Virus record (IMG/VR): IMGVR_UViG_3300024432_000003
Location: 1 to 41,516 of that record
DNA length: 41,516 nt
Source of the DNA: a virus
Strand: one strand, 5' to 3'
Position numbers and translations under genes: made by a program. The notes beneath the pieces were generated by a model. It searched no databases, had not been told where the DNA came from, and worked only from the letters and a program-made list of their open reading frames with translations. Position 1 is the first letter of the stretch, and each line of letters opens with the position of its first letter. Below, piece by piece: positions 3,279 through 34,177 of the stretch.

Positions 3279-3487
3279 CACGCCACCTGCATGATCTGCC
3301 ACCGTGCCCCATCACTAAACAGCCGCCCCGTCACGGTGTACGTTTCACCGCTGGTTAACTTCACCTGGTAGTGCGGGCTGTCTTCAAAGCGCCCAATGTC
3401 AAAGCTGGTAAACCCAGCTCCGATTTCCACCGGGTGCAGTTCGGCAATGGCTTGGATCGCCTGCCAGTAGTCTTCATAGTATTGCAT
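3278..3487 (-). CDS. Small hypothetical protein, 69 residues
   Basis: The start is placed at the ATG at 3487 because AAGGTGAAG precedes it at good spacing. A longer open frame reaches 3535, but a promoter-like -10 at 3519-3524 lies inside that extension. The product is acidic to neutral, with a helical N-terminus and a probable small beta-sheet made by the KLTSGETYTVTGRLF-like C-terminal half. It is coupled (TGATG) to the next gene. No family is recognised. Confidence 0.65.
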   Translation of the reverse strand: MQYYEDYWQAIQAIAELHPVEIGAGFTSFDIGRFEDSPHYQVKLTSGETYTVTGRLFSDGARWQIMQVA

Positions 3488-3518
3488 TGTCTTCACCTTT
3501 GTGTTGTGCCGTAGGTAC

Positions 3519-3548
3519 ATGGTACCACCGATCAACCGTCACAAGCAA
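3519..3548 (-). promoter_or_regulatory. Putative sigma-70 promoter, minus strand
   Basis: TTGCTT (3548-3543) and TACCAT (3524-3519) are separated by 18 bp, with TGG directly before the -10 as in the phage's other extended -10 sites. It would drive the pair 3487-2799. It lies back to back with the plus-strand promoter at 3620-3648. Confidence 0.4.
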
Positions 3549-3619
3549 ACTGACGCAGCCCTATGGCTACGATCCTAGGGGGCGTTTGCCTGGCCCTATA
3601 TATAAGGTGTGATGTTCCC

Positions 3620-3648
3620 TTGTGTTCGCTAGCGTTCGGGCGTACTAT
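3620..3648 (+). promoter_or_regulatory. Putative sigma-70 promoter for the small-gene operon
   Basis: TTGTGT (3620-3625) and TACTAT (3643-3648) have an ideal 17-bp spacer. The first gene of a tight operon starts about 30 nt downstream. The -35 hexamer is the same as at 40674-40679. Confidence 0.5.
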
Positions 3649-3680
3649 GGCCTTACTGGTTAGCACAAAGGTTGATGACA

Positions 3681-3911
3681 ATGTACACCAAGAAGATACC
3701 CACCGTTGAAAATACCTGCATTGACCACGGCAAGAATGCAGTTTTCATTTTGGACCACAACTACCTTGGAATGGACTTTGACCAGTGGCCCTACGAAATA
3801 AACGTAAAGGGGATCCACAGCAACTTCAAGCTGCAAAGGATCCAGCCCTTTAACGACGCCCGACTGTACATAAGCGAAAGCGGGCTGACGTTAGAAGTGG
3901 TGCAGCTATGA
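3681..3911 (+). CDS. Small hypothetical protein, 76 residues (first of the accessory operon)
   Basis: The ATG at 3681 has AAAGG 9 nt upstream; the in-frame ATG at 3675 sits too close to it. The product is a soluble protein with alternating hydrophobic and charged residues, suggesting a small beta-rich fold. Nothing in it identifies a function. It overlaps the next gene by 4 nt (ATGA). Tiny coupled genes behind their own promoter are typical of an early phage accessory or host-interaction module. Confidence 0.6.
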   Translation: MYTKKIPTVENTCIDHGKNAVFILDHNYLGMDFDQWPYEINVKGIHSNFKLQRIQPFNDARLYISESGLTLEVVQL

Positions 3912-4111
3912 CATACCGCCGGCTGACGAACGTGTATGGCCCCCTGACCGTAGGGGAACTTAAACAAATTCTGAATGGCGTATCTGACGACGACTTGTTT
4001 GTTACGATTGACGGTCTAGGGTACACCGGCTTTTCGGCCACCATTACAGAAATCGGCTACAACAGTGACCAGCTTGTGCTGGAACTAGCAACACGAAGGG
4101 AAAAGCAATGA
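3908..4111 (+). CDS. Small hypothetical protein, 67 residues
   Basis: It overlaps both neighbours by 4 nt (ATGA junctions), which supports it as a real coupled gene. It has an acidic centre (SDDD near residue 26) and a repeated hydrophobic and Gly pattern compatible with a small alpha/beta domain. The segment TVGELKQILNGVSDDD resembles the short helical start seen in many phage small proteins. I cannot assign a family. Confidence 0.6.
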   Translation: MTYRRLTNVYGPLTVGELKQILNGVSDDDLFVTIDGLGYTGFSATITEIGYNSDQLVLELATRREKQ

Positions 4112-4407
4112 CTTACGCAGAACAGACCCGCATACAAATACGGGAACGTGACCGTCTTGAACAGCTGTTTGAAGAACTGGAACAGCTGGTTGGGACCCAC
4201 GGCCCACAGGACGTCTTAGGCGAACTATACTATGTGTTCCAGAACCAAGGGCACATGGTGAACGGGTGCCCCGAACAGGGCAACTGGCAGATCCTAGCCG
4301 GACAGGTTAGGGTGCTAGCGACGAGCGAAGCAGCCAAGGGGATTGACGGGCTAACCCCAGAAGAGCGGCATTGCATAGACCACAGCCCCAGCAACGACGA
4401 GGACTAA
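4108..4407 (+). CDS. Hypothetical acidic protein, 99 residues
   Basis: The start overlaps the previous stop (ATGA). The N-terminal 35 residues are rich in Arg, Glu, Gln and Leu with heptad spacing, predicting a coiled coil. The C-terminus ends in an acidic NDED tail. A single Cys near residue 55 and one at 93 are not arranged as a metal site. It is part of the 3681-5354 operon. The function is unknown. Confidence 0.6.
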   Translation: MTYAEQTRIQIRERDRLEQLFEELEQLVGTHGPQDVLGELYYVFQNQGHMVNGCPEQGNWQILAGQVRVLATSEAAKGIDGLTPEERHCIDHSPSNDED

Positions 4408-5155: not shown

Positions 5156-5354
5156 CCTGACGAAATGCAACCATTGCACCGTGAATGCCCTAGCGTCGAG
5201 GGCGGCCAGGCAGGGGAAGTTCCTAAAGCTAGTGAAGTCTAACTACGCTTTGGGCGGCCATGAAGTCCATATCTGTGGGCACAGGGAAGTGCCTTGTCAA
5301 GATACGTGGTGTGCTTGGGTCATGAACCTACCGACCCGATGCTGCTGCGGCTAG
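5148..5354 (+). CDS. Small Cys-rich, likely zinc-binding protein, 68 residues
   Basis: The start is the ATG at 5148, overlapping the upstream stop. A longer in-frame reading to 5076 would run through the previous gene. A CNHC pair at residues 7-10 is followed by a basic helix, a HICGH segment near 45, and more Cys residues toward the end (a CQDTWC segment and CCC). This fits a small zinc-ribbon or treble-clef-like fold. It is the last gene of the operon, and the iteron-like field begins exactly at its stop codon. It could be a DNA- or RNA-binding factor, but that is inference. Confidence 0.55.
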   Translation: MGSLTKCNHCTVNALASRAARQGKFLKLVKSNYALGGHEVHICGHREVPCQDTWCAWVMNLPTRCCCG

Positions 5355-5626
5355 AATACCCACCCCCAAGCTAAGAATACCCACCTGCGCCGGCTCGACT
5401 GAGTGGTGCGTCCCCTCGTCTTGGGTATTCACGTGTCGTGCATGGGTTGAATACCCGGTAGTGTACCCGTCTAAGTTATTGTTTCGTAAGGTCTTCTTAA
5501 GTGGGTATTCTGGGTACACTCCAAAATGGTAAAAGTATAAAGTCTGTAATTATCGAAGTCACCCTCGTAATGGGGTAGTTGTAATAGTTATGCTTCGCAA
5601 GTGTACCCAGTGTACTCGAATACCCA
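5354..5626. repeat. Iteron-like field of GAATACCC and GTGTACCC repeats
   Basis: GAATACCC occurs at 5354, 5375, 5449 and 5618 on the plus strand and as GGGTATTC at 5423 and 5503. A sister motif GTGTACCC occurs at 5461 and 5601, and inverted at 5512. The two motifs occur as pairs at 5449-5468, 5503-5519 and 5601-5626. The first two copies are 21 bp apart, two helical turns. No gene fits here, so this is a protein-binding array: a replication origin or an operator cluster. It is not a CRISPR, because the repeats are short and irregularly spaced. Confidence 0.65.
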
Positions 5627-5653
5627 TCGCCATCTGATATGGCCCCCTGGTGG

Positions 5654-5840
5654 CGACGTCGAGTCAGAAAAGTCCCAAGTATTTAGATCTTGAAGTGATG
5701 GTCTTGTCAAATCCGAACATGGCATCGAAATCGACGTGACTTCGACCCCTGGGGAGTCGACGTCGACTTCAGTTCATTAACCTGGATCTTGGTGTCGACG
5801 TCGACCAGTCTTCTCAAACGCCCACGCGGATTTCGACGTC
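5654..5840. repeat. CGACGT repeats with two 12-bp palindromes
   Basis: CGACGT occurs at 5654, 5732, 5758, 5796 and 5834. Two copies sit inside the perfect palindrome GTCGACGTCGAC (5756-5767 and 5794-5805). The last three copies are exactly 38 bp apart. The DNA here and up to 5924 is very rich in TC on the plus strand and contains no convincing gene. With the upstream iteron-like field it makes a candidate origin or regulatory region. Confidence 0.55.
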
Positions 5841-5936
5841 AGGTCCTCTCTCGTCGTCATCGTCAGTCGTCGGTCGTCGTCTGTCGTCAAATCCTCGTCA
5901 CTGTCCATCATGGGTTGGTCGTTCATGGGTGGGGGC

Positions 5937-5979
5937 AAAAAAATTGCCAGGGCCGCGCCTGGTTGGCGCGGCCCTGGCA
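5937..5979 (-). terminator. Strong rho-independent terminator (minus direction)
   Basis: A perfect 15-bp, very GC-rich stem (5945-5959 with 5965-5979) closes a 5-nt loop and is followed on the minus strand by seven T residues (5943-5937). It lies 8 bp past the stop codon of the 6296-5988 gene and is strong evidence that this gene is transcribed. Confidence 0.85.
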
Positions 5980-5987
5980 GGGCTTGG

Positions 5988-6296
5988 CTAGCCCTTGGTG
6001 GCCTTGGCGGGCTGGTTGGTGGTTACCACCCAACCCCTGCGCAGGCAGTACCTGGCAAAGCGCACGTTGCTTGCCACGGGGCCGTTGGCCTGGCCCATTT
6101 GGGCCAGGGTGGCACCGCTGGCAATGGCGGCCAGCAGCTGCTGCCAGCTGTGCTGGTTGTGCTTGGCCTTTACCGCGTAGGGCTTGCAAGGGTTAACCGC
6201 CAGGTACACAGGCTTGGCCTGTGCGGGCTTGGCGGGCTTGGCCTTGGTGGCCTTGGTGGTGGTGGCCTTAGCGGCCTTGGCTTTGGTAGTGGGCAT
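5988..6296 (-). CDS. Lys/Ala-rich basic protein without Asp or Glu, 102 residues
   Basis: The ATG at 6296 has AAAGG upstream; a longer frame to 6458 has no support. Residues 2-29 are a histone H1-like tail of Lys, Ala, Thr and Pro. Residues 30-102 look folded, with a helix around HSWQQLLAAIASG and a likely strand near the GWVV segment. The protein contains no Asp and no Glu, because the gene lies in the GA/TC-free island: every Ser is AGC, every Phe TTT and every Ile ATT. It is very basic and probably binds DNA, perhaps the neighbouring repeats or the island itself. A strong terminator follows. The function is inferred only. Confidence 0.65.
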   Translation of the reverse strand: MPTTKAKAAKATTTKATKAKPAKPAQAKPVYLAVNPCKPYAVKAKHNQHSWQQLLAAIASGATLAQMGQANGPVASNVRFARYCLRRGWVVTTNQPAKATKG

Positions 6297-6364
6297 GGTG
6301 TTGTACCTTTGTGCTAGTGGTGTGCCTGGCAAGCCCTGGCGGGCTTGCCTGTGCCTGGTACGCG

Positions 6365-6382
6365 CCTGCGCATGTGCGCAGG
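6365..6382. repeat. Perfect palindrome upstream of the basic-protein gene
   Basis: CCTGCGCA and TGCGCAGG form perfect 8-bp arms around a TG centre, about 70 bp upstream of the start at 6296. It could be an operator or a cruciform or hairpin element. It lies in a gene-free part (6297-6555) of the GA/TC-free island, where I found no convincing promoter or other gene. Confidence 0.4.
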
Positions 6383-6677
6383 GCCAGGTGGCCTTTGCTG
6401 CCGTGGGCAACCCAACAGCCAGCACAGGCCACCATACAGCAATGCACCACCATTGCAACCCCTGCCTGGCAAATAAATTGCTTGCAACCCTTGCCAGGGT
6501 ATGCTAGGCCAACCAAGGCCATGCAAGGGCCGTGCCAATGGTGCAGCGCACAAGGGATGGGCATTAAAGTATTACAACTTAGATTACTACCCCGGGGCGG
6601 GTGAACCCCCGAAATGTTTACGTCGACGGTTACTCCACCTCCAGACATAATCTTCAAAATTTTGGGCTTCAAAGAAC

Positions 6678-7201: not shown

Positions 7202-7398
7202 CCGACATCCCCAGCACTAGCCTTACCGTAGAAGGCACCCGAAAACAGACCGCGACCTCGCGGGACGCACATCCTGGGGGAGGTAAAAGCGACGAAATGC
7301 GGAAATTGGGCTTGGTGCGTCGCCGAGCCAAGGGTTTGGACGATATTCCTACCAGTGTGGGGCGGAGCAAGAAGAAAAAGAAGAAAAAGGGGCCATGA
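7198..7398 (+). CDS. Small basic hypothetical protein with poly-Lys tail, 66 residues
   Basis: It overlaps both neighbours by 4 nt (ATGA). It is polar and Thr/Ser-rich at the N-terminus, basic in the middle (RRRAKG), and ends in seven consecutive Lys. It is likely disordered and nucleic acid binding. The poly-A run that encodes the Lys stretch (about 7371-7390) is prone to sequencing or ribosomal slippage. The function is unknown. Confidence 0.6.
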   Translation: MTDIPSTSLTVEGTRKQTATSRDAHPGGGKSDEMRKLGLVRRRAKGLDDIPTSVGRSKKKKKKKGP

Positions 7399-7796
7399 AC
7401 GAGCAAGAAACCAAAGTAGTTGAGTTTTTGACCCCTGAGGAGTACGAGGGGCAGCAGGCGCTGGAAACTCAGCTAAACGACATCGCCGCAGCACCGAAAA
7501 AGGTGCTAAAATTCAATCGGGCAAGCAAGGTCACACGTCAAGACGTGGTGAATGCGTTTACGAACGCATTTCAGATGATTGGAGGGGTGGATAGGCTGGC
7601 CGTTTGGGCAGATGCCAACCCAGGCGAGTTTTTCAAGATATTCGGCAAACTCCTCCCGCCCTCGAACACGGATTTGCTGGATGGCAACCGTGAATTCGTT
7701 GTGCGGCACATTCTGCCGCCGCCTGTGATGGATACAACTCCTAAAACCATAGTAGAAAACGCCGAATTTACAGAGGTGAAAGACGATGCCAGTTGA
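7395..7796 (+). CDS. Putative terminase small subunit
   Basis: The product has 133 residues. The segment from about 51 to 85, with AFQMIGGVDRLAVWADAN followed by an FFKIFGKLLPP run, is characteristic of proteins encoded directly before phage large terminases and often annotated as small subunit. That role is DNA recognition during packaging. The C-terminus contains a beta-rich stretch and an acidic tail. It overlaps the next small gene by 11 nt and the large subunit follows 160 bp later. I infer the role from position and this motif; a helix-turn-helix is not obvious. Confidence 0.55.
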   Translation: MNEQETKVVEFLTPEEYEGQQALETQLNDIAAAPKKVLKFNRASKVTRQDVVNAFTNAFQMIGGVDRLAVWADANPGEFFKIFGKLLPPSNTDLLDGNREFVVRHILPPPVMDTTPKTIVENAEFTEVKDDAS

Positions 7797-7959
7797 CCCG
7801 GATACTACGTTCACATGCCCGATACATGGTTCTGGGCAGGCGGGCATTATGATCAGCCAGGCAGCCGAGCCGGACTTATTCATCTGCTACGCCTGCTGGC
7901 AAGACTTTCTCACTGACGATACCGTCCACAAGTGTGAAATTGCCACGCCGGAGCCGTAG
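7786..7959 (+). CDS. Small putative zinc-binding protein between the terminase subunits, 57 residues
   Basis: The frame starts inside the end of the preceding gene and its TAG overlaps the GTG start of the large terminase as TAGTG, so it fills the gap exactly. Cys and His occur as CPIH near 11-14, CYAC near 38-41 and HKC near 53. This could be a compact zinc knuckle. Such a small factor between terminase genes might help DNA recognition, but that is inference. Confidence 0.55.
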   Translation: MPVDPDTTFTCPIHGSGQAGIMISQAAEPDLFICYACWQDFLTDDTVHKCEIATPEP

Positions 7960-9272
7960 TGCCCGAAGTATCGGTACCCTATGAACCGCGCCACCAGTTC
8001 ATGCCGCTTCACACGCGGAAACAGCGGTGGGCAGTCGTTGTCGCCCACCGCCGAGCTGGAAAGACGGTGGCAACTCTTAATGACCTTGTTAGCATGGCGC
8101 TCTATGTCCAAAAGGAGCGCGCTCGGTATGCTTACATCGCTCCTTACTATTCCCAGGCGAAGCAAATCGCTTGGGACTACCTTGTACACTATACTCAGGC
8201 TGTCGCTACGAAAGTTAGCCTCAGTTCTCTTAGTATTGACCTTTTCAATGGTGCTCGCATCACCCTTTATGGTGCTGATAATCCTGACGCATTACGAGGG
8301 GTCTACTTTGACGGTGTTGTTATCGATGAGTATGGTGATTGTAAGCCTAGTCTTTGGACCGAAATTATTCGACCGACTCTGGCCGATAGGCGAGGGTGGG
8401 CTACTTTCATTGGGACGCCTAATGGGCTAAATCACTTCTACGACATATGGGAGTTCGCCAAGGCGCACCCGGAAGAGTGGCTTACGATGGCCCTCCCTCA
8501 AAGCAAAACCGGCATTCTCGACGCAGACGAGGTCGAAGAAATGCGGGCCATGATGGATGAAGATGAGTTCTTACAAGAAATTGAATGTTCATTCATGGCG
8601 GCTACCAGGGGAGCCTTCTACTCCAGTGAACTTAAGAAGGCTCATATTGGCTCCTATCCTTTGGACCCTAGTCGGCCTAGCAATTATGTGTTTGATCTTG
8701 GTTACACAGATAGCACGGCTATCTGGCGATGGCAGGAGTACCCGGACGCCATAGAGCTCAACCTAAGCTATGAGCAAGATAACAGGTCGATACAGTATTA
8801 CATTGATTGGCTGCACTCTCAGCGGGAAGCCGGTATTAAGATTGGAGATGTGTGGCTGCCTCACGACGCAAGAGCCAAGACACTCCAGACTGGTAGAAGT
8901 ATCGTGGAACAATTTCTCTCTGGTGGGGTACGGCCTCAGATTGTCCCCAAACTTGATTTGCTGGACGGAATTCAAGCAGCCAGAATGCTTTTTCCATCCG
9001 TGTACTTCGACGCCGAAGGCTGCAAAGATGGACTATTGGCTCTCCGGTCGTACAGACGCATTTGGAACGCCGATAGGAACGAGTATAGTGCCAAGCCCCT
9101 CCATGACTGGAGTTCAAATTTTGCCGACGCGTTCCGGTATTTCGGGCTTGTGGCAAAAATGCGTGAAGACCCCAAGCCTGAGAAAGATAGGCCGTTTGCT
9201 CGCGAAATTAACTATGGTTTCTGCTTGGACGACCTTTGGGACAAAAGGCCCGAGAATAGCGGCTGGCACTGA
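7959..9272 (+). CDS. terL: Terminase large subunit (DNA packaging ATPase/nuclease)
   Basis: The product has 437 residues from a GTG start coupled to the preceding stop. The N-terminal ATPase has a Walker A RRAGKT at 31-36 and a Walker B VIDE at 121-124. The coupling motif GTPNG follows at 152-156. The C-terminal RNase H-like nuclease has Asp246 and Asp251 in a VFDLGYTDS segment and a final DWSSNFADAF segment near 405-415. It pumps DNA through the portal and cuts genome-length units. Length and motif order are normal for the family. Next come two small genes and then the portal. Confidence 0.95.
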   Translation: MPEVSVPYEPRHQFMPLHTRKQRWAVVVAHRRAGKTVATLNDLVSMALYVQKERARYAYIAPYYSQAKQIAWDYLVHYTQAVATKVSLSSLSIDLFNGARITLYGADNPDALRGVYFDGVVIDEYGDCKPSLWTEIIRPTLADRRGWATFIGTPNGLNHFYDIWEFAKAHPEEWLTMALPQSKTGILDADEVEEMRAMMDEDEFLQEIECSFMAATRGAFYSSELKKAHIGSYPLDPSRPSNYVFDLGYTDSTAIWRWQEYPDAIELNLSYEQDNRSIQYYIDWLHSQREAGIKIGDVWLPHDARAKTLQTGRSIVEQFLSGGVRPQIVPKLDLLDGIQAARMLFPSVYFDAEGCKDGLLALRSYRRIWNADRNEYSAKPLHDWSSNFADAFRYFGLVAKMREDPKPEKDRPFAREINYGFCLDDLWDKRPENSGWH

Positions 9273-9900: not shown

Positions 9901-11898
9901 ATGCCAGCGCTCACCGAACAAGGTATATCCGCCGTAGAGCCACGGGCCAACGACGACCGAAACGACTCGGCACTTGGCGAAGAGCTTGGCCTTCCTAAAT
10001 ACGACATTGCGTACTGGAAAGACCAGATACGCATCGCTGGTAAAGAACTGGAGAAGTTTCACGAGCGTGGGCGCAAGACACAACGTCGCTACCTTGATGA
10101 ACGCGAAGCAAACGATGAGCAAAGCCGAAAGTTCAACCTCTTCTGGGCTAACACGGGAGTCCTTCGGTCTGCTCTATATGCTAACCCACCGTCACCCACC
10201 GTTAAGCGCGAGTGGGACGATTTCAATGACGATGTGGGCCGAGTGGCAGCGGAAATCCTGGAACGACTACTCAAACTTGGACTCCAGCGCCCAAGAGGCG
10301 ATATGGACGTCGCGTTCGCCTACGCCACCGAAGACCGTCTCGTTCCTGGGCTTGGTCAGGTGTGGCTCAGATATGATGTAACTACGGCTGAGCAGACCAT
10401 ACCTGGCACTCCTGTTACCTACGAGCAAATTGTAGACGAGGACGCCATTACGGATTACATTCACTGGGAAGATTTCCTGTGGGCACCGTGCCGTGTCTGG
10501 GAAGAGTGCCGGTGGGTGGCGCGACAGGCGCACATGACTAAAGAGCGTATGGTCAAGCGTTTCGGCGCGGATACAGCCGACCGTGTTTCCTACAGCGACA
10601 AATTCGAGAATGTGGACCGCGTGGGCGCACAGGACAATACCCCTGTTCGCCGCCCCGAGGCTACAGCCTCAGTGTGGGAAATTTGGAATAAGACCAATAA
10701 GACGGTGTATTGGGTTTCCGTTACAGATACGGACCGTCTGCTCGACAAAAAGCCTGACCCCCTCGGCCTGGTAGGGTTTTTTCCGTGCCCGAAGCCACTT
10801 ACTGCGACCAACAGCACATCCAACATGGTGCCGCGTCCTGACTATTACATGACGAAGGACCAGTATGAAGAAATTGACACCGTCAACACCCGCATCAACT
10901 GGCTTATCAAGGCATGTAAGGCCGCGGGAGTCTATGACAAGTCAGCTGAAGGAATTCAACGCCTATTTGAACAAGGTACGGAAAACTCCCTTATACCTGT
11001 TGATAATTGGGCCATGTTCGCCGAGCGTGGCGGGGTACAGGGGCAAATCGACTGGATACCGCTTGACCAAATTGCCGCCACTATCCAAATCCTGAATGAG
11101 CAACGCGGAAACATGGTGCAGCAGCTCTATGAGTTGACTGGTATCAGTGACATTATGCGTGGCAGCACGAATGCCCGCGAAACGCTGGGTGCTCAGCAGT
11201 TGAAAGCACAGTATGGCTCTGTTCGGCTACAGTACATCCAGGGCACCATTTCCGAGTTTGTTCAAGAGGCCATGCGTATCAAGGCCGACATAATCAGCAA
11301 GCATTTTCAGCCTGAGACTATTATCAAGAAAAGCCTAATACAGATGATACCTCAGACTGACCACCGTCTTATCCAGCCCGCTGTCCAAATGCTGAAGAAT
11401 ACGCCCGTTGTTTCCTACCACCTGGAAGTGCAGGCGGACGACATGTCTATTCCGGACTACGCTGTGGAAAAGCAGAGCCGTATGGAGTACATCACGGCTA
11501 TGGGGCAGCTTATCAGTCAAAGCTGGCAGGCTGTTCAGGCCGCGCCGGAAATGGCTCCCCTCGTTCTGCAAAGTCTTCAGTGGGCAGCGGCTGGTTTCAA
11601 AAATGGCCGCATGCTGGAAGGCGTGCTGGACCAGGCTGTGGACCAGGCCCTCAAGCAGTTGGCTGCGAAAGCGCAGCAGCCTGAGCCGCCACCGCCTGAG
11701 GTCATCGAGGCCCAGGCCGATGCACAGCGTAAGGCGCAGGAGGCTCAGCAAGAAATTGCACAGGATTGGGCTAAGACTCAGGCTGAAATTGCACAGGATA
11801 ACCAGGATGCAGCCAACGAGCGCAGACTCGCTTGGCTCAAGGGTAACACAGATGCGGATATTGCCCGCATGGTAGCGAGGGCCAGAACCAGTGCGTAG
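9901..11898 (+). CDS. Portal protein (head-tail connector)
   Basis: The product has 665 residues. It forms the dodecameric vertex through which DNA is packaged and ejected and to which the tail adaptor binds. Evidence is its length, its place after terminase, and a typical portal layout: an early KFHERGRKTQRRYLDER segment, a central region with an ITDYIHWEDFLWAPCR run, a stem-like LYELTGISDIMRGS segment followed by an ETLGAQQLKAQYGS motif near 425-440, and a long helical, Gln/Ala-rich C-terminal barrel (about 575-660). This resembles P22-like and marine podovirus portals more than the shorter T7 type. The next gene overlaps by 8 nt. Confidence 0.9.
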   Translation: MPALTEQGISAVEPRANDDRNDSALGEELGLPKYDIAYWKDQIRIAGKELEKFHERGRKTQRRYLDEREANDEQSRKFNLFWANTGVLRSALYANPPSPTVKREWDDFNDDVGRVAAEILERLLKLGLQRPRGDMDVAFAYATEDRLVPGLGQVWLRYDVTTAEQTIPGTPVTYEQIVDEDAITDYIHWEDFLWAPCRVWEECRWVARQAHMTKERMVKRFGADTADRVSYSDKFENVDRVGAQDNTPVRRPEATASVWEIWNKTNKTVYWVSVTDTDRLLDKKPDPLGLVGFFPCPKPLTATNSTSNMVPRPDYYMTKDQYEEIDTVNTRINWLIKACKAAGVYDKSAEGIQRLFEQGTENSLIPVDNWAMFAERGGVQGQIDWIPLDQIAATIQILNEQRGNMVQQLYELTGISDIMRGSTNARETLGAQQLKAQYGSVRLQYIQGTISEFVQEAMRIKADIISKHFQPETIIKKSLIQMIPQTDHRLIQPAVQMLKNTPVVSYHLEVQADDMSIPDYAVEKQSRMEYITAMGQLISQSWQAVQAAPEMAPLVLQSLQWAAAGFKNGRMLEGVLDQAVDQALKQLAAKAQQPEPPPPEVIEAQADAQRKAQEAQQEIAQDWAKTQAEIAQDNQDAANERRLAWLKGNTDADIARMVARARTSA

Positions 11899-19813: not shown

Positions 19814-21459
19814 TGCCATTACAACCAGTACCGCGGATGGGAGTAGGCGTTGGTCTAAGGACGGCGCAGACTCGTAACACGCAACGTGTCACGACTCCCT
19901 CCCCTGTTAACGGGCTTATTTCTCAGAAGCCCCTTGCAGGGATGTTGCTGCAAGACGCACTTCAGCTGCGCAATTTCTGGTCCAAGCCCTATGGTCTAGA
20001 GCTACGGCCAGGGTACCGCATACATCAGAATAAACTTAACGATCCTGTAAATACGCTCATGGCGTATGAAGCACTGGACCCTGGCGACAACAAACTTTTC
20101 GCAGTAACATTTGAAGGTATCACAGATGTTACTGACAGGCAGGACAACCCCATACAACCCCCGCGCGATGTCACATTTGCTACTCAGATACCAGGCATTA
20201 CCGACCAATGGTCGTGGATACAGTTTTCCACAGCGGGTGACAACTTCCTGTGCGCCGTTAACGAGTTCAATGGGTACCTCACATATTCCACTGCTACGGG
20301 CTGGGTTCAACATCCGGCGGGCGTGGGGGTCGGTGAGATAGACGGTACCGACCCCCTAAACTGGGACTATGTTATGTCCTGGAAGCGCAGGCTGTGGTTC
20401 ATTGACCGCAATAGCACGAGAGCATGGTACCTCCCCGTAGACCAGATTGCCGGGGAGGTGCAGGAGTTTGACTTTGGCGCTTACATCCGGCAGGGTGGTA
20501 CTCTTCAACAACTCGTTTCGTGGACTCGCGACGGTGGCGATGGCCTTGACGATTTTCTTATCGTTATTGGTAGTCAGGGCGATGTCATTGCTTACCAGGG
20601 TAGTGACCCTGAAAATGCTGACACATTCAGTATGGTTGGCGTTTGGGATGTTGGGCGCGTACCTACTGGTCGTAGAATAGCTATGAAGTCTGGTGGTGAC
20701 GTACAGGTATTGTGTGAAACTGGCGTTATTCCACTAAGCGAGCTCTTTACTGGTGCGTTGAAAATTGGCTCCGCTGAGTCAATGGGGTTTGACATACAGA
20801 CTATCTTGGCCCGTAAGGTTAGCGAAAATCTTGACGAGCCACAGTGGGAACTGCACTACTATCCTAGGGAAGAGCAGTTCATGATTAAGGAGCCAGTCAC
20901 TATTAACGAGAGAGCGGCTCGTATATGGTCTGCCAGTGTTCACAATAACGCATGGTCACAGTTGACCAATCTGCCTATTCAGACTGTAGTAGTGTTTGAA
21001 AGCACTATGTACGGAGGGGACCAGGACGGCAACGTGTACGAATTGTTCGTGGGTAACTCGGACAACGTAGGCTTTGACGGCTTGCCCAATGAAGACCTTA
21101 TTGGCCGAGTGCAAACAGGGTTTTCCAATTTTGACACACCTGAACTTAAGAGATGCCAGCTTGTGGAACCCGTGTTTCAGGGTAGTTCCGCCCCTGGTGT
21201 TCAGATTGTCATGTATAATGAGTGGGACTTTGACAACCTACAAGGGTCGCCGCAATTCTTTGCTCCTAATGACGGGGCCATGTGGGATGTCGACTTCTGG
21301 GACCAAGCCTTTTGGTCTGGTTCAGGCAATACCTATAAAGCCTGGTCAGGAGTCGGTTGCTTGGGTAGGTTCTTGTCACTATATATGACGGTGCGGGGTC
21401 CGGCACGCCTAGTATTCACACACTGGACGTTGTCGTTTGAACAGGGTGGCCTGATGTGA
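19813..21459 (+). CDS. Tail nozzle or hub protein, gp10/tail tubular protein B-like
   Basis: The product has 548 residues. It forms the hexameric nozzle below the adaptor and retains the packaged DNA. The N-terminus, with PSPVNGLISQKPLAGM and LQDALQLRNFWSKPYGLELRPGY, is characteristic of podovirus stabilisation/nozzle proteins. The rest is beta-propeller-like, with repeated W-V-FIDRNSTRAWYLP and GDVIAYQGSDP blades, and an intact length. It overlaps the next gene by 4 nt. Confidence 0.8.
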   Translation: MPLQPVPRMGVGVGLRTAQTRNTQRVTTPSPVNGLISQKPLAGMLLQDALQLRNFWSKPYGLELRPGYRIHQNKLNDPVNTLMAYEALDPGDNKLFAVTFEGITDVTDRQDNPIQPPRDVTFATQIPGITDQWSWIQFSTAGDNFLCAVNEFNGYLTYSTATGWVQHPAGVGVGEIDGTDPLNWDYVMSWKRRLWFIDRNSTRAWYLPVDQIAGEVQEFDFGAYIRQGGTLQQLVSWTRDGGDGLDDFLIVIGSQGDVIAYQGSDPENADTFSMVGVWDVGRVPTGRRIAMKSGGDVQVLCETGVIPLSELFTGALKIGSAESMGFDIQTILARKVSENLDEPQWELHYYPREEQFMIKEPVTINERAARIWSASVHNNAWSQLTNLPIQTVVVFESTMYGGDQDGNVYELFVGNSDNVGFDGLPNEDLIGRVQTGFSNFDTPELKRCQLVEPVFQGSSAPGVQIVMYNEWDFDNLQGSPQFFAPNDGAMWDVDFWDQAFWSGSGNTYKAWSGVGCLGRFLSLYMTVRGPARLVFTHWTLSFEQGGLM

Positions 21460-21911
21460 TTGTTGTAAGGCCAGAAAAAGACCTACACTGGTGGCTCAAC
21501 CAACGAGTATCTGTGTCTTACTCTGACGACTTCCGTGCAATAGGTTGGGTGGAAAAGGGTGTATTGAAAGCCGTCGTGGGGTATACTGACACCAATGGAA
21601 AAACTGCACAAATTCATGTAGCAGCAGACGGTAAGAACTGGATGCGCCGTGAGTTCCTGTGGTTCACCTTTTACTACCCCTTTGTTCAGCTCAAGCTGAA
21701 TTGGCTAATTGGAGTGGTGAATGCAACCAATGCCAAAGCCCTGAAGATGGACACCAACATAGGGTTTGAAGAATTCACACGTATCCCTGACGGTTATGCT
21801 GATGGGGAGGATCTTATTTTGCTGCGCTTGCACCGTGAGCATCCGCGTGTGCAGAAATGGCTCAGCTTAGGAGAGAAATATGGGCAAGGCATCACCGCCA
21901 CCGCCGCCTGA
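21456..21911 (+). CDS. GNAT-like acetyltransferase
   Basis: The product has 151 residues from a GTG start. It has the GNAT layout: strand pair with AVVGYTDTNGKTAQIHVAAD, a helix, then NWLIGVVNATNAKALKMDTNIGFEEFTRI. That is the motif B region where a beta bulge, an Asn and a Gly-Phe usually contact acetyl-CoA. Small GNAT genes lie between the nozzle and internal-protein genes in many podoviruses. The substrate is unknown; a virion protein or host target is possible. The classical Q/R-x-x-G-x-G/A P-loop is not clear, so activity is uncertain. Confidence 0.6.
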   Translation: MIVVRPEKDLHWWLNQRVSVSYSDDFRAIGWVEKGVLKAVVGYTDTNGKTAQIHVAADGKNWMRREFLWFTFYYPFVQLKLNWLIGVVNATNAKALKMDTNIGFEEFTRIPDGYADGEDLILLRLHREHPRVQKWLSLGEKYGQGITATAA

Positions 21912-30016: not shown

Positions 30017-30586
30017 TTAGCACCACATTTTCACCCGCAGCCAGGTGGTGCAGATGTACTTTGTCCCAGACACAGGGGTTAGTCCACGGTGGGGGTGAGT
30101 CCAGTACGGTGGGAAGACCACTAGCTTGCCAGCCTCCGGTCGCACTTTAATTCCTTGATGTAAAAACTCTGTTTCCCCACCCTCCTCTACATCGTTAAGG
30201 TACCAGATAAGTGCCAGCATCCTGTTGATTATTCCGGGCACCGGGCCGGTGTCCACATGGTACTCATATTTCTGCCCAGGTTCGGTTCGCTGTATTCTAC
30301 AGCCAGGGTAGTCGAACTGGTCCTCATTGCCCACAAATTCTTGGAACCATGCAAAGATTTCAGTAACTGAGTCAAGAAATGCTTGACCCTCTACTTGCCA
30401 TTCCGCACGGTTAGAGATATCAGTAAGGTCAGTGGATGCTTTGAAGTTGGGGTCGTGGGTGCCCTCCCCAAACCTGCCGACTTCTTTATTGGGGTCAAGC
30501 TCAAATTTAGATATGGCCCCCTCGCAAAAAGGTCGACTCAGCGTTTGGGGAAACTCGTAGATGAAACTGCCAGGTTTTACTTCCAC
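30017..30586 (-). CDS. 2-oxoglutarate/Fe(II)-dependent oxygenase, prolyl 4-hydroxylase-like
   Basis: The GTG at 30586 is chosen because GGAGG sits 8 nt upstream; the open frame extends to 30745 but that part overlaps a membrane-protein gene. The product has 189 residues. The motif YHVDTG (about 118-123) gives the iron-binding His and Asp. EGGETEF follows, then FPPYWTHPHRG provides the second His and the TKYICTTWL strand carries the basic 2-oxoglutarate contact. The fold is the double-stranded beta helix. The substrate could be a protein or, given the base-modification cluster in the same unit, a modified nucleotide. The phage P4H-like group does not include TET/JBP. Confidence 0.75.
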   Translation of the reverse strand: MEVKPGSFIYEFPQTLSRPFCEGAISKFELDPNKEVGRFGEGTHDPNFKASTDLTDISNRAEWQVEGQAFLDSVTEIFAWFQEFVGNEDQFDYPGCRIQRTEPGQKYEYHVDTGPVPGIINRMLALIWYLNDVEEGGETEFLHQGIKVRPEAGKLVVFPPYWTHPHRGLTPVSGTKYICTTWLRVKMWC

Positions 30587-30813
30587 ATTCTTTTCCTCCA
30601 GCGCACGTACATGAGTGTCCCACTTACAGCAAAAGTCATGAGGGTACCTATTGTGACTATAGCTCCCCCCGCCCAGGTGACAGCTTGGTCTTCTAAGATG
30701 GCACCCACTATAACTTGAACGCCACCTATAATGACGGCCCACCAAGAGTTCTTATTTATCCACTCCGCTACATCCATGACGCGGTGCAGGTGTTCTTGCT
30801 GGTACATCTTCAT
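30577..30813 (-). CDS. Small two-pass membrane protein, holin-like
   Basis: The product has 78 residues from the ATG at 30813; a longer frame to 30909 is not supported. Two hydrophobic helices (about 21-38 and 46-68) flank a short turn with an LEDQAVTWAG segment, and the end is strongly basic (RWRKRMWK). It overlaps the oxygenase gene, with its stop lying 8 nt inside. This topology resembles small class II holins or envelope-stress proteins. It may be an accessory holin, although the main lysis genes are on the other strand. Confidence 0.6.
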   Translation of the reverse strand: MKMYQQEHLHRVMDVAEWINKNSWWAVIIGGVQVIVGAILEDQAVTWAGGAIVTIGTLMTFAVSGTLMYVRWRKRMWK

Positions 30814-32583: not shown

Positions 32584-33432
32584 TCATGGTATTGGGTTCG
32601 TACTGTCAGGGTGCCTTCCGTCGTATCGCTGCTTGGGTTTTGATTCTCCAAAGTATGTACGCTCCCATTTGTCAAACTCACACAGGCAGTTTTGAAAGTC
32701 CTGCATGTCTATTTCAGGCATGGGGTCCAGCAGGGGGACAACCCGCTGGCGTGCAGCCTGCGCCACCCTTAAGAATGCCTTCTTAGACGGCCTACGCCCG
32801 TTCTCGAGCCGCGCAAGCCCGCGCAGGCTACCAGGGCCAGGGGCGCACCACGTGAGCCGGTCTGGAGCCTCCTGTAGCGGGTGTCCAGGTGTGTTCTTAA
32901 GGTCAGCTATCACCTGTGCTGCCAGGAAACTACCTAGCCCCTTGACCTGAGTTAGCTGTCGGTGCCAGTGTTCCAGAGTATTTTCTGGTTGTATGCTGAC
33001 CATTGAATTGCGTGTATCATCAGCCACCCGGAATACATAGTCTATCTTATCCATCTTCACACCACAGGTAGTGATGAGGTACGCACCGTTGAATATCTTA
33101 ATACCACAGGCCCGACGGTCTTTCAAACCAAAGGCCATATCTTCAACATCCCAAAAGTGTGGGAACCCCAGCGCCTGAAGTGTGTCAGGCAAGTTAAACA
33201 TCCGCGCCAGCACCAGAGCGGGGATAAGGTTTTCATGTTTCACATTGGGGTTACGCCAATGTTCTGCTATCCACTTGGTGACCTTGTCGTTTTCCCTGTG
33301 TACGTTACAGAACCGAAAGTCCTGTAGTATACGGTCCGTTGTCCATGGTCTAGGGTCCCCACGCTCCCGCTTAACCAGTATATTCCACCGGTGATTAATC
33401 CAGTATGCTATTCGCTGCTCTGCCGTGTTCAT
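32584..33432 (-). CDS. DNA base hypermodification protein, aGPT-pyrophosphorylase/5-hmdU kinase helical-domain family
   Basis: The product has 282 residues from the ATG at 33432, which has GGAAG upstream; the longer frame to 33627 overlaps the glycosyltransferase too far. The core motif RFCNVHRENDKVTKWIAEHW (about 40-59) and the helix-hairpin-helix-like LTQVKGLGSFLAAQVIADLK (about 164-183) followed by PGSLRGLARL are the signature of this family. Members occur in phages with hypermodified thymines and are predicted to pyrophosphorylate 5-hydroxymethyl-dU in DNA, activating it for addition of another group. The P-loop kinase domain that some relatives carry is absent. It lies between the glycosyltransferase and thymidylate synthase-like genes. 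Confidence 0.8.
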   Translation of the reverse strand: MNTAEQRIAYWINHRWNILVKRERGDPRPWTTDRILQDFRFCNVHRENDKVTKWIAEHWRNPNVKHENLIPALVLARMFNLPDTLQALGFPHFWDVEDMAFGLKDRRACGIKIFNGAYLITTCGVKMDKIDYVFRVADDTRNSMVSIQPENTLEHWHRQLTQVKGLGSFLAAQVIADLKNTPGHPLQEAPDRLTWCAPGPGSLRGLARLENGRRPSKKAFLRVAQAARQRVVPLLDPMPEIDMQDFQNCLCEFDKWERTYFGESKPKQRYDGRHPDSTNPIP

Positions 33433-34177
33433 AGGCTTTCTTCCACTGTATGCGAGTGTCAATGCGGGTGCCCCCGCCCCAGGCAGTCTTGGTTTCTTTT
33501 TCCACAGCCTTAACGAATGGCCGGTGCAGTTCCTCCAGTCGGCGGGCTGCGTCAGCCAATAGCTCAGGTGTACGGAAGTGACTGCACCCACCGGGGGCGT
33601 CACTACCACCTTTTTGATTGTTGACAAATTCTGAGAGTATACAGTTGGGGTACCCGAGCTTCAGTAAGCTGAGATTCATGTGGTGGTCCTGCATAAGCGG
33701 AATATCCGTAAACTTCAGGTTGTGGTGCTTGAGTACCTCCGTCTGGTATCCCAGCACTCGAATCATACGCCCCACTTCCTTAGTCTCTTCCGTGTAGCGG
33801 TTCCCGCCCTCGCGCCCCATCATGCCCACATGCACGAAGTTGTTCAACATGTCTTCTAAACAAGTGAACATGAATAGTACATCTTCATTGGTTAGCTTGC
33901 GAAACTTGGTGCGGTCATCTTCCCTACGCCTGTAGAATAACAGGTCATCATCAAGCATGAGCAGCTTACCGTTGAACATATCAAGAATCCACTGGCGCGT
34001 GGGCGATATAGTTTCAATGCCAGCAGGCAGTGCGATGTGAGGGTACTGGGAATACAGGTGTGACTCACGTGCTTGTACGATTAGAGTCGGCTTGTACTTA
34101 GATTGCAGGTAGCCATCAAAGACATCAAACGTAGTCTGCTGTCCCGAACGCCCATAGGTCGGAATAAATATTCGCAT
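33395..34177 (-). CDS. Glycosyltransferase of the TET-associated (TAGT-like) type
   Basis: The product has 260 residues. It opens with MRIFIPTYGRSGQQTTF, a GT-A beta-alpha start. A GKLLMLDDDLLFYRRRE segment gives the DxD metal/nucleotide-sugar motif (about 75-78), and LMQDHHMNLSLLKLGYPN supplies the acceptor-side acidic motif (about 162-180). A SDAPGGCSHFRTPE region follows. This pattern fits the glycosyltransferases found beside DNA base-modifying enzymes, predicted to attach sugar to a hydroxymethyl or amino-modified base. It overlaps the hypermodification protein by 38 nt, so the two are co-translated. The sugar donor is unknown. Confidence 0.75.
   Translation of the reverse strand: MRIFIPTYGRSGQQTTFDVFDGYLQSKYKPTLIVQARESHLYSQYPHIALPAGIETISPTRQWILDMFNGKLLMLDDDLLFYRRREDDRTKFRKLTNEDVLFMFTCLEDMLNNFVHVGMMGREGGNRYTEETKEVGRMIRVLGYQTEVLKHHNLKFTDIPLMQDHHMNLSLLKLGYPNCILSEFVNNQKGGSDAPGGCSHFRTPELLADAARRLEELHRPFVKAVEKETKTAWGGGTRIDTRIQWKKAYEHGRAANSILD

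Follow-up and report, generated by a model that had tools for sequence, protein, structure and literature searches.

Why should a phage genome in which GA and its complement TC are common carry a stretch from which both are entirely missing? The window analyzed here, a 41,516-bp viral record (IMG/VR IMGVR_UViG_3300024432_000003) with podovirus-like genes including those for a primase-helicase, terminase, PolA and helicase, contains 4,658 GA/TC sites, but there are 0 GA and 0 TC on either strand between positions 5925 and 6555 (631 bp), an island flanked by TC at 5923-5924 and GA at 6556-6557 in which the other 14 dinucleotides are all represented. The runner-up gap between GA/TC sites in this phage is 48 bp. 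From the island's own base composition (64% G+C), 71.5 GA/TC sites are expected, with a minimum of 49 in 10,000 shuffles; genome Markov models of order 2 to 5 give a log10 probability of -38.9 to -42.9 for zero sites, and no other dinucleotide window of the genome is as extreme as the island (composition-corrected z of -7.6). These shuffles and Markov models rule out chance or composition as its source. The original prediction, made from the letters alone, was exact as to the limits of the island and the presence of the other dinucleotides, and under the shuffled and Markov models that it had proposed as a check the island does stand alone; its figure of about 80 expected sites was slightly high. 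Searches of open-access papers brought up no earlier account of an island like this one, with priority uncertain for Iggyvirus, which is discussed below. After the island, the k-mer gap that stands out most in the window is that at 3418-4323, where CTC/GAG is absent from 905 bp against an expectation of about 24.

The island holds a minus-strand gene (5988..6296) for a protein of 102 amino acids, P0001, which has a Lys/Ala-rich N-terminus, lacks Asp and Glu, and uses AGC for serine throughout. Its intrinsic terminator (5938..5979, minus strand), a 15-bp perfect stem at 5945-5979 with a U-run, is itself GA/TC-free and has a predicted RNA fold of -37.6 kcal/mol (z of -6.1); the GA/TC-free zone stops 13 bp past this U-run. 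On the other side, 259 bp of non-coding DNA upstream of the gene (6297..6555, minus strand) hold no GA/TC site where about 27.6-31 are expected; this segment would hold the P0001 promoter, and a search within it for a consensus promoter found none. The gene has 0 sites against 29.7 expected and the left non-coding part 0 against 6.1. With the encoded protein held fixed and codons drawn as this phage uses them, 18 sites would be expected in the gene, and the probability of zero is 10^-9.9; with the non-coding parts equally empty, a protein or codon effect is ruled out, in agreement with the original prediction. The P0001 protein itself is bent by the purge of GA/TC, its homologue in a related contig, L003 (72% protein identity), having one Asp, one Glu and eight Ser. 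In family searches the best PHROG match to P0001 had an E-value of 0.31, and neither phage proteins nor the PDB yielded a notable relative; DNA-pattern scans with the P0001 core matched L003 as the sole viral contig and no cellular genome. G015, G008 and G007 have distant homologues at this locus.

The island is not an isolated oddity of one record. Relatives were collected through the large terminase (7959..9272, plus strand; PF03237, E = 2.8e-13) and positions were anchored on the putative small terminase gene, terS (7395..7796, plus strand; assigned from position and conservation), a relative search with the primase as query having found nothing. In 9/9 contigs, representing 7 distinct lineages, GA/TC corrected for composition is lowest in a window at -1095 to -1463 from terS, with observed over expected counts of 25/53, 31/62, 36/62, 33/65, 33/58 and 32/58 in relatives and 0/52 in the window, and most contig pairs have no alignment inside this trough. 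Pooled over the relatives, with the window excluded, the troughs contain 261 GA/TC sites against 453 expected (z of -9.0), while the second most depleted dinucleotide reaches only z -2.5; the 8 GA-containing trimers fill the bottom eight places among 32, and the depletion is alike in gene and non-coding parts. Because GA/TC is the sole strong depletion and the eight GA trimers rank lowest, the avoided unit is the GA/TC dinucleotide itself, as had been proposed from the single sequence. The P0001 homologue in L017 sits on the opposite strand, yet the trough is present there, and the feature therefore belongs to the DNA region. The island is the extreme case of a trough conserved among these relatives; the close-clade genomes are all metagenomic. 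In G015, troughs of similar strength in AC/GT occur at 3326 and 38226, one of them near a glycosyltransferase gene of the TAGT family described below.

Comparison with L003, whose large terminase is 92% identical to that of the window, bears on how the sites were lost. In the aligned part of the island, 22/22 of the L003 GA/TC sites are changed in the window, whereas 33/39 are kept in the left flank. Acquisition of the island from a GA-free source is ruled out, since the gene is also present in L003, at 72% identity, and contains GA/TC sites there. A directed mutational process could empty a region completely, for instance through a TC-directed deaminase (a deaminase was among the agents of the original prediction), but the lost L003 sites became many different dinucleotides, transversions included, the 64% G+C of the island is opposite to what deamination would leave, and the same dinucleotide is partly depleted in the relatives; we regard such a process as barely credible.

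Immediately beside the island lies its converse, a GA/TC-rich zone (5650..5924) with 63 sites against 34 expected, in which GA/TC density over 200 bp reaches its genome-wide maximum, at 5701. The window, L003 and the L017 group have GA/TC peaks at about -1670 to -1695 from terS. This zone overlaps an intergenic region (5351..5680) of which the part at 5422-5680 is conserved with L003, and which contains GAATACCC/GGGTATTC in repeated and inverted copies, GAATACCCA repeats at 5351, 5372 and 5615 and, at 5505/5600, an inverted pair. Part of it (5440-5592) is free of the GC dinucleotide, and the region is a candidate origin or control region. T7 primase uses GTC, and about half of the rich zone's GA/TC sites are GTC/GAC, compared with about a quarter genome-wide; together with the nearby primase-helicase gene, this would suit a primase that starts at a TC-containing template site, with the island as a start-free zone and its neighbour as the zone of initiation. 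However, GTC/GAC is no more depleted than other GA trimers in the relatives' troughs (ratio 0.56 versus 0.58 overall), the sites used by primases are mostly three nucleotides or longer, and Okazaki fragments exceed a 631-bp gap in length, so that the effect of any one site should be small. Priming, which had also been put forward at the outset, is accordingly a decidedly unlikely explanation.

A set of genes elsewhere in the genome points to base modification, the one agent in the original prediction that fits best. A thymidylate synthase (TS)-like homologue of dUMP hydroxymethylase (P0003; 31490..32464, minus strand; phrog_5131, E = 2e-99) shares 44% identity over 98% with the M6 protein, and its same-family matches, best in the M6 group, are annotated as deoxyuridylate hydroxymethyltransferase. 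Adjacent to it on the same strand are the gene for an HMUDK_hel / aGPT-Pplase1 protein (P0002, from Met65; 32584..33435, minus strand; PF18723, E = 5.8e-37), with homologues in M6, YuA and other phages, and that for a TAGT-family glycosyltransferase (33395..34177, minus strand; PF20691, E = 2.4e-14), a family found in eight records including the window. The TAGT gene thus lies beside that of a base-hydroxymethylating enzyme and clusters with both P0002 and P0003. This three-gene cassette is common to G008, G015 and G032, and TS and HMUDK_hel recur in those clade contigs that reach the cassette part of the genome. Judged from homology, the cassette predicts 5-hydroxymethyl-dU that is further decorated. 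In TAGT-type systems, which glycosylate 5-hydroxymethylpyrimidines, a TET/JBP-type dioxygenase is the partner enzyme; the window has a 2OG-Fe(II) oxygenase gene near the cassette (30017-30676), which matches PF13640 rather than a TET-specific model.

We therefore favor, with a probability of roughly 0.58, the interpretation that the island is a modification-exempt zone in a thymidine-hypermodified phage genome. The phage would make 5-hydroxymethyl-dU, which the TAGT and the HMUDK_hel/aGPT-Pplase1 protein may decorate where T precedes C, such that every 5'-TC-3' (GA on the other strand) would be a modification site. The modified T of M6, ViI and phi W-14 lies in TG or TC, as deduced from restriction-resistance patterns (PMC6449724), and kinase-treated SP8 DNA agrees with a TG/TC context (PMC7653180). 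TC has a single T, and its occurrences on the two strands together are precisely the GA/TC sites. A bulky mark at TC may hinder a polymerase or initiator: transcription by E. coli RNA polymerase on 5hmU templates phosphorylated by the kinase was 37% of that on unmodified DNA (PMC6457204), while T7 RNA polymerase was affected variably by bulky T modifications of natural origin (PMC11550810). At the locus between the primase gene and terS, modified bases would disturb function, and TC would have been selected away on both strands.

Like M6, ViI and phi W-14, the window has the dUMP hydroxymethylase homologue and the HMUDK_hel/aGPT-Pplase1 protein; unlike them it has a TAGT, and its trough is TC-specific, spans a gene and is complete. 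With M6 gp054 and Sonora 041 as queries, no M6-type P-loop 5hmdU kinase was found in the window at an E-value of 1e-3, while homologues are present in G034, G035, G037 and G038. By its gene content, then, the window phage would not be a full member of the M6/ViI/phi W-14 type. The P-loop kinase is the enzyme credited with the TG/TC preference, and its absence from the hits in the window counts against the exempt-zone interpretation.

Across genomes, the depth of the trough goes with the presence of the cassette. Seven genomes with HMUDK_hel (the window, G008, G015, G032, G035, G037 and G038) have locus minima (the smallest GA/TC z found in the 2.6 kb that precede terS) of -6.8, -3.9, -2.9, -2.8, -3.9, -3.1 and -4.1, respectively, compared with -2.0, -2.4, -1.4, -1.3, -0.2, -2.4, -2.0 and -1.5 in eight terminase-found genomes without it (BUCT555, P26218, Venkman, Mvi-Yong1342-1, MW202481, vB_OspP_OH, MW202557 and HTVC010P). 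The ranges are disjoint (-2.8 to -6.8 versus -0.2 to -2.4), for a window size and locus limits that were set after earlier results had been seen, when other sizes and genomes were possible choices. In 500-bp windows, the genome-wide GA/TC minimum falls at the locus in 5/7 genomes with HMUDK_hel, G032 and G037 being the exceptions, and in 0/8 without it. The contrast is an association only, as the two groups are probably separate clades and hence phylogenetically non-independent; G035, G037 and G038 have large terminases just 43-44% identical to that of the window, whose TAGT finds no match in them. Two of the genomes without HMUDK_hel, P26218 and MW202557, do have a TS homologue. Cassette genomes with partial depletion keep many TC sites at the locus, so the total purge is special to the lineage of the window. 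BUCT555 also carries a GNAT gene in a place similar to that of an Acyl-CoA N-acyltransferase family protein encoded among the structural genes of the window (21456-21911).

The same comparison weighs on the idea that the locus serves as an origin or in packaging and that the proteins acting there, or the mechanics of the DNA, disfavour GA/TC independently of any base modification. The locus does lie beside the primase-terS junction, conserved repeat-bearing intergenic DNA adjoins the island, and the trough is conserved regardless of strand. However, the eight terminase relatives without HMUDK_hel show no trough there, and a structural preference is not expected to clear every copy over a gene and its terminator. 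We consider this explanation unlikely, though one to be taken seriously.

One of the more distant genomes has lost a second dinucleotide as well. The locus in G037 is depleted in both TG (z of -4.3) and TC (-3.1), which fits the TG/TC context reported for M6-like systems; a CA/TG trough at 10026-10525 in this genome (28 versus 63) lies where other genomes lose GA/TC. In M6 the lowest TG+TC window is just upstream of terS (96 versus 138) and the next is upstream of a helicase gene, and Sonora has TG+TC lows at matching places, with its lowest of all inside a tail gene. These M6 and Sonora lows are modest and in non-coding DNA, and neither phage shows a strong GA/TC-only trough at terS.

A further GA/TC-poor zone occurs in phages that are reported to modify a different base. 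In Iggyvirus Knedl, a zone at 58.5-59.0 kb has 8 GA/TC sites versus 49 per 500 bp (z of -6.2); the zone is also present in Iggy and Pa-X, close relatives that make this one independent case. Several GA/TC gaps of 150-181 bp are found in L032 (39425-43726) and L033 (8480-9306; phage Knedl). For Iggy, a single GA motif is reported in the title of Olsen 2023, cited in PMC11008142, and G is the base reported to be modified in the GA motif of Iggyvirus phages. A rival explanation of the island is therefore that the phage of the window modifies guanine in GA, as do Queuovirinae with dPreQ0, Iggyvirus among them. The window resembles Iggyvirus, a member of the Queuovirinae, in having a GA/TC-poor zone, whereas Iggyvirus belongs to another phage group, carries a DpdA-made dG modification and has an incomplete zone (8 sites per 500 bp). 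No DpdA/TGT (PF01702) was found in the window, with control genomes positive, nor any queuosine-pathway gene among the proteins scanned, and the joint loss of TG and TC in G037 fits T before G or C. Guanine modification therefore has a very slight chance of explaining the island.

Cleavage offers another route to a purge. A host or phage nuclease or nickase that cuts GA/TC in a DNA state peculiar to this locus would impose the strong cost per site that two-base recognition and complete purging suggest, but the rest of the genome retains some 4,650 GA/TC sites, half of the sites survive in the relatives, and PADLOC models, applied to six proteins, gave Cas4-like matches to an exonuclease only; we judge such an agent very unlikely. 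Avoidance of restriction sites or PAMs by phages is likewise avoidance of a short word. It is normally genome-wide, whereas the purge in the window is confined to one locus and the dinucleotide is common elsewhere. Restriction, deamination and priming all fit worse than a modification-exempt zone. Base J of kinetoplastids involves no local dinucleotide purge that we know of, and it differs from the predicted system in being eukaryotic and made by different enzymes. It is a glucosylated 5-hydroxymethyluracil with a reported link to transcription termination (PMC7055916).

If the island is a modification-exempt zone, the likeliest need for it would be that the P0001 unit is read by a polymerase that modified bases hinder, for example host RNA polymerase when infection begins; the cleared zone runs from just past the P0001 terminator to about 260 bp upstream of the start codon, which makes P0001 transcription the likeliest candidate. 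An origin adjoining the island is an alternative need, a role that the neighbouring conserved, repeat-bearing intergenic DNA may have. The opposite strand of the P0001 homologue in L017 weakens a gene-specific reading, and the GA/TC-rich neighbour has no clear role in the exempt-zone model. That neighbour, the partial troughs in relatives and the modification cassette had all been missed by the original prediction, whose proposed checks on related genomes, at the same locus and by alignment, are answered by the troughs and the losses relative to L003 described above.

Taken together, these observations lead us to suggest, tentatively and at somewhat less than even odds, that dinucleotide-hypermodifying phages keep one conserved exempt locus by purging the dinucleotide concerned, sometimes beside an enriched zone, so as to create an unmodified/modified pattern controlling transcription or replication, and that this would hold for T-modifiers and, independently, for Iggyvirus. 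If true, sequence alone would reveal the target context of a hypermodification enzyme, as the dinucleotide missing from a single locus. A simple genome-scan statistic would then serve for finding modification systems and their motifs. The site at which a fully modified phage stays unmodified would also be mapped to within a few bases, and the long-standing question of how phages with bulky modifications start transcription or replication would become testable at a named locus.
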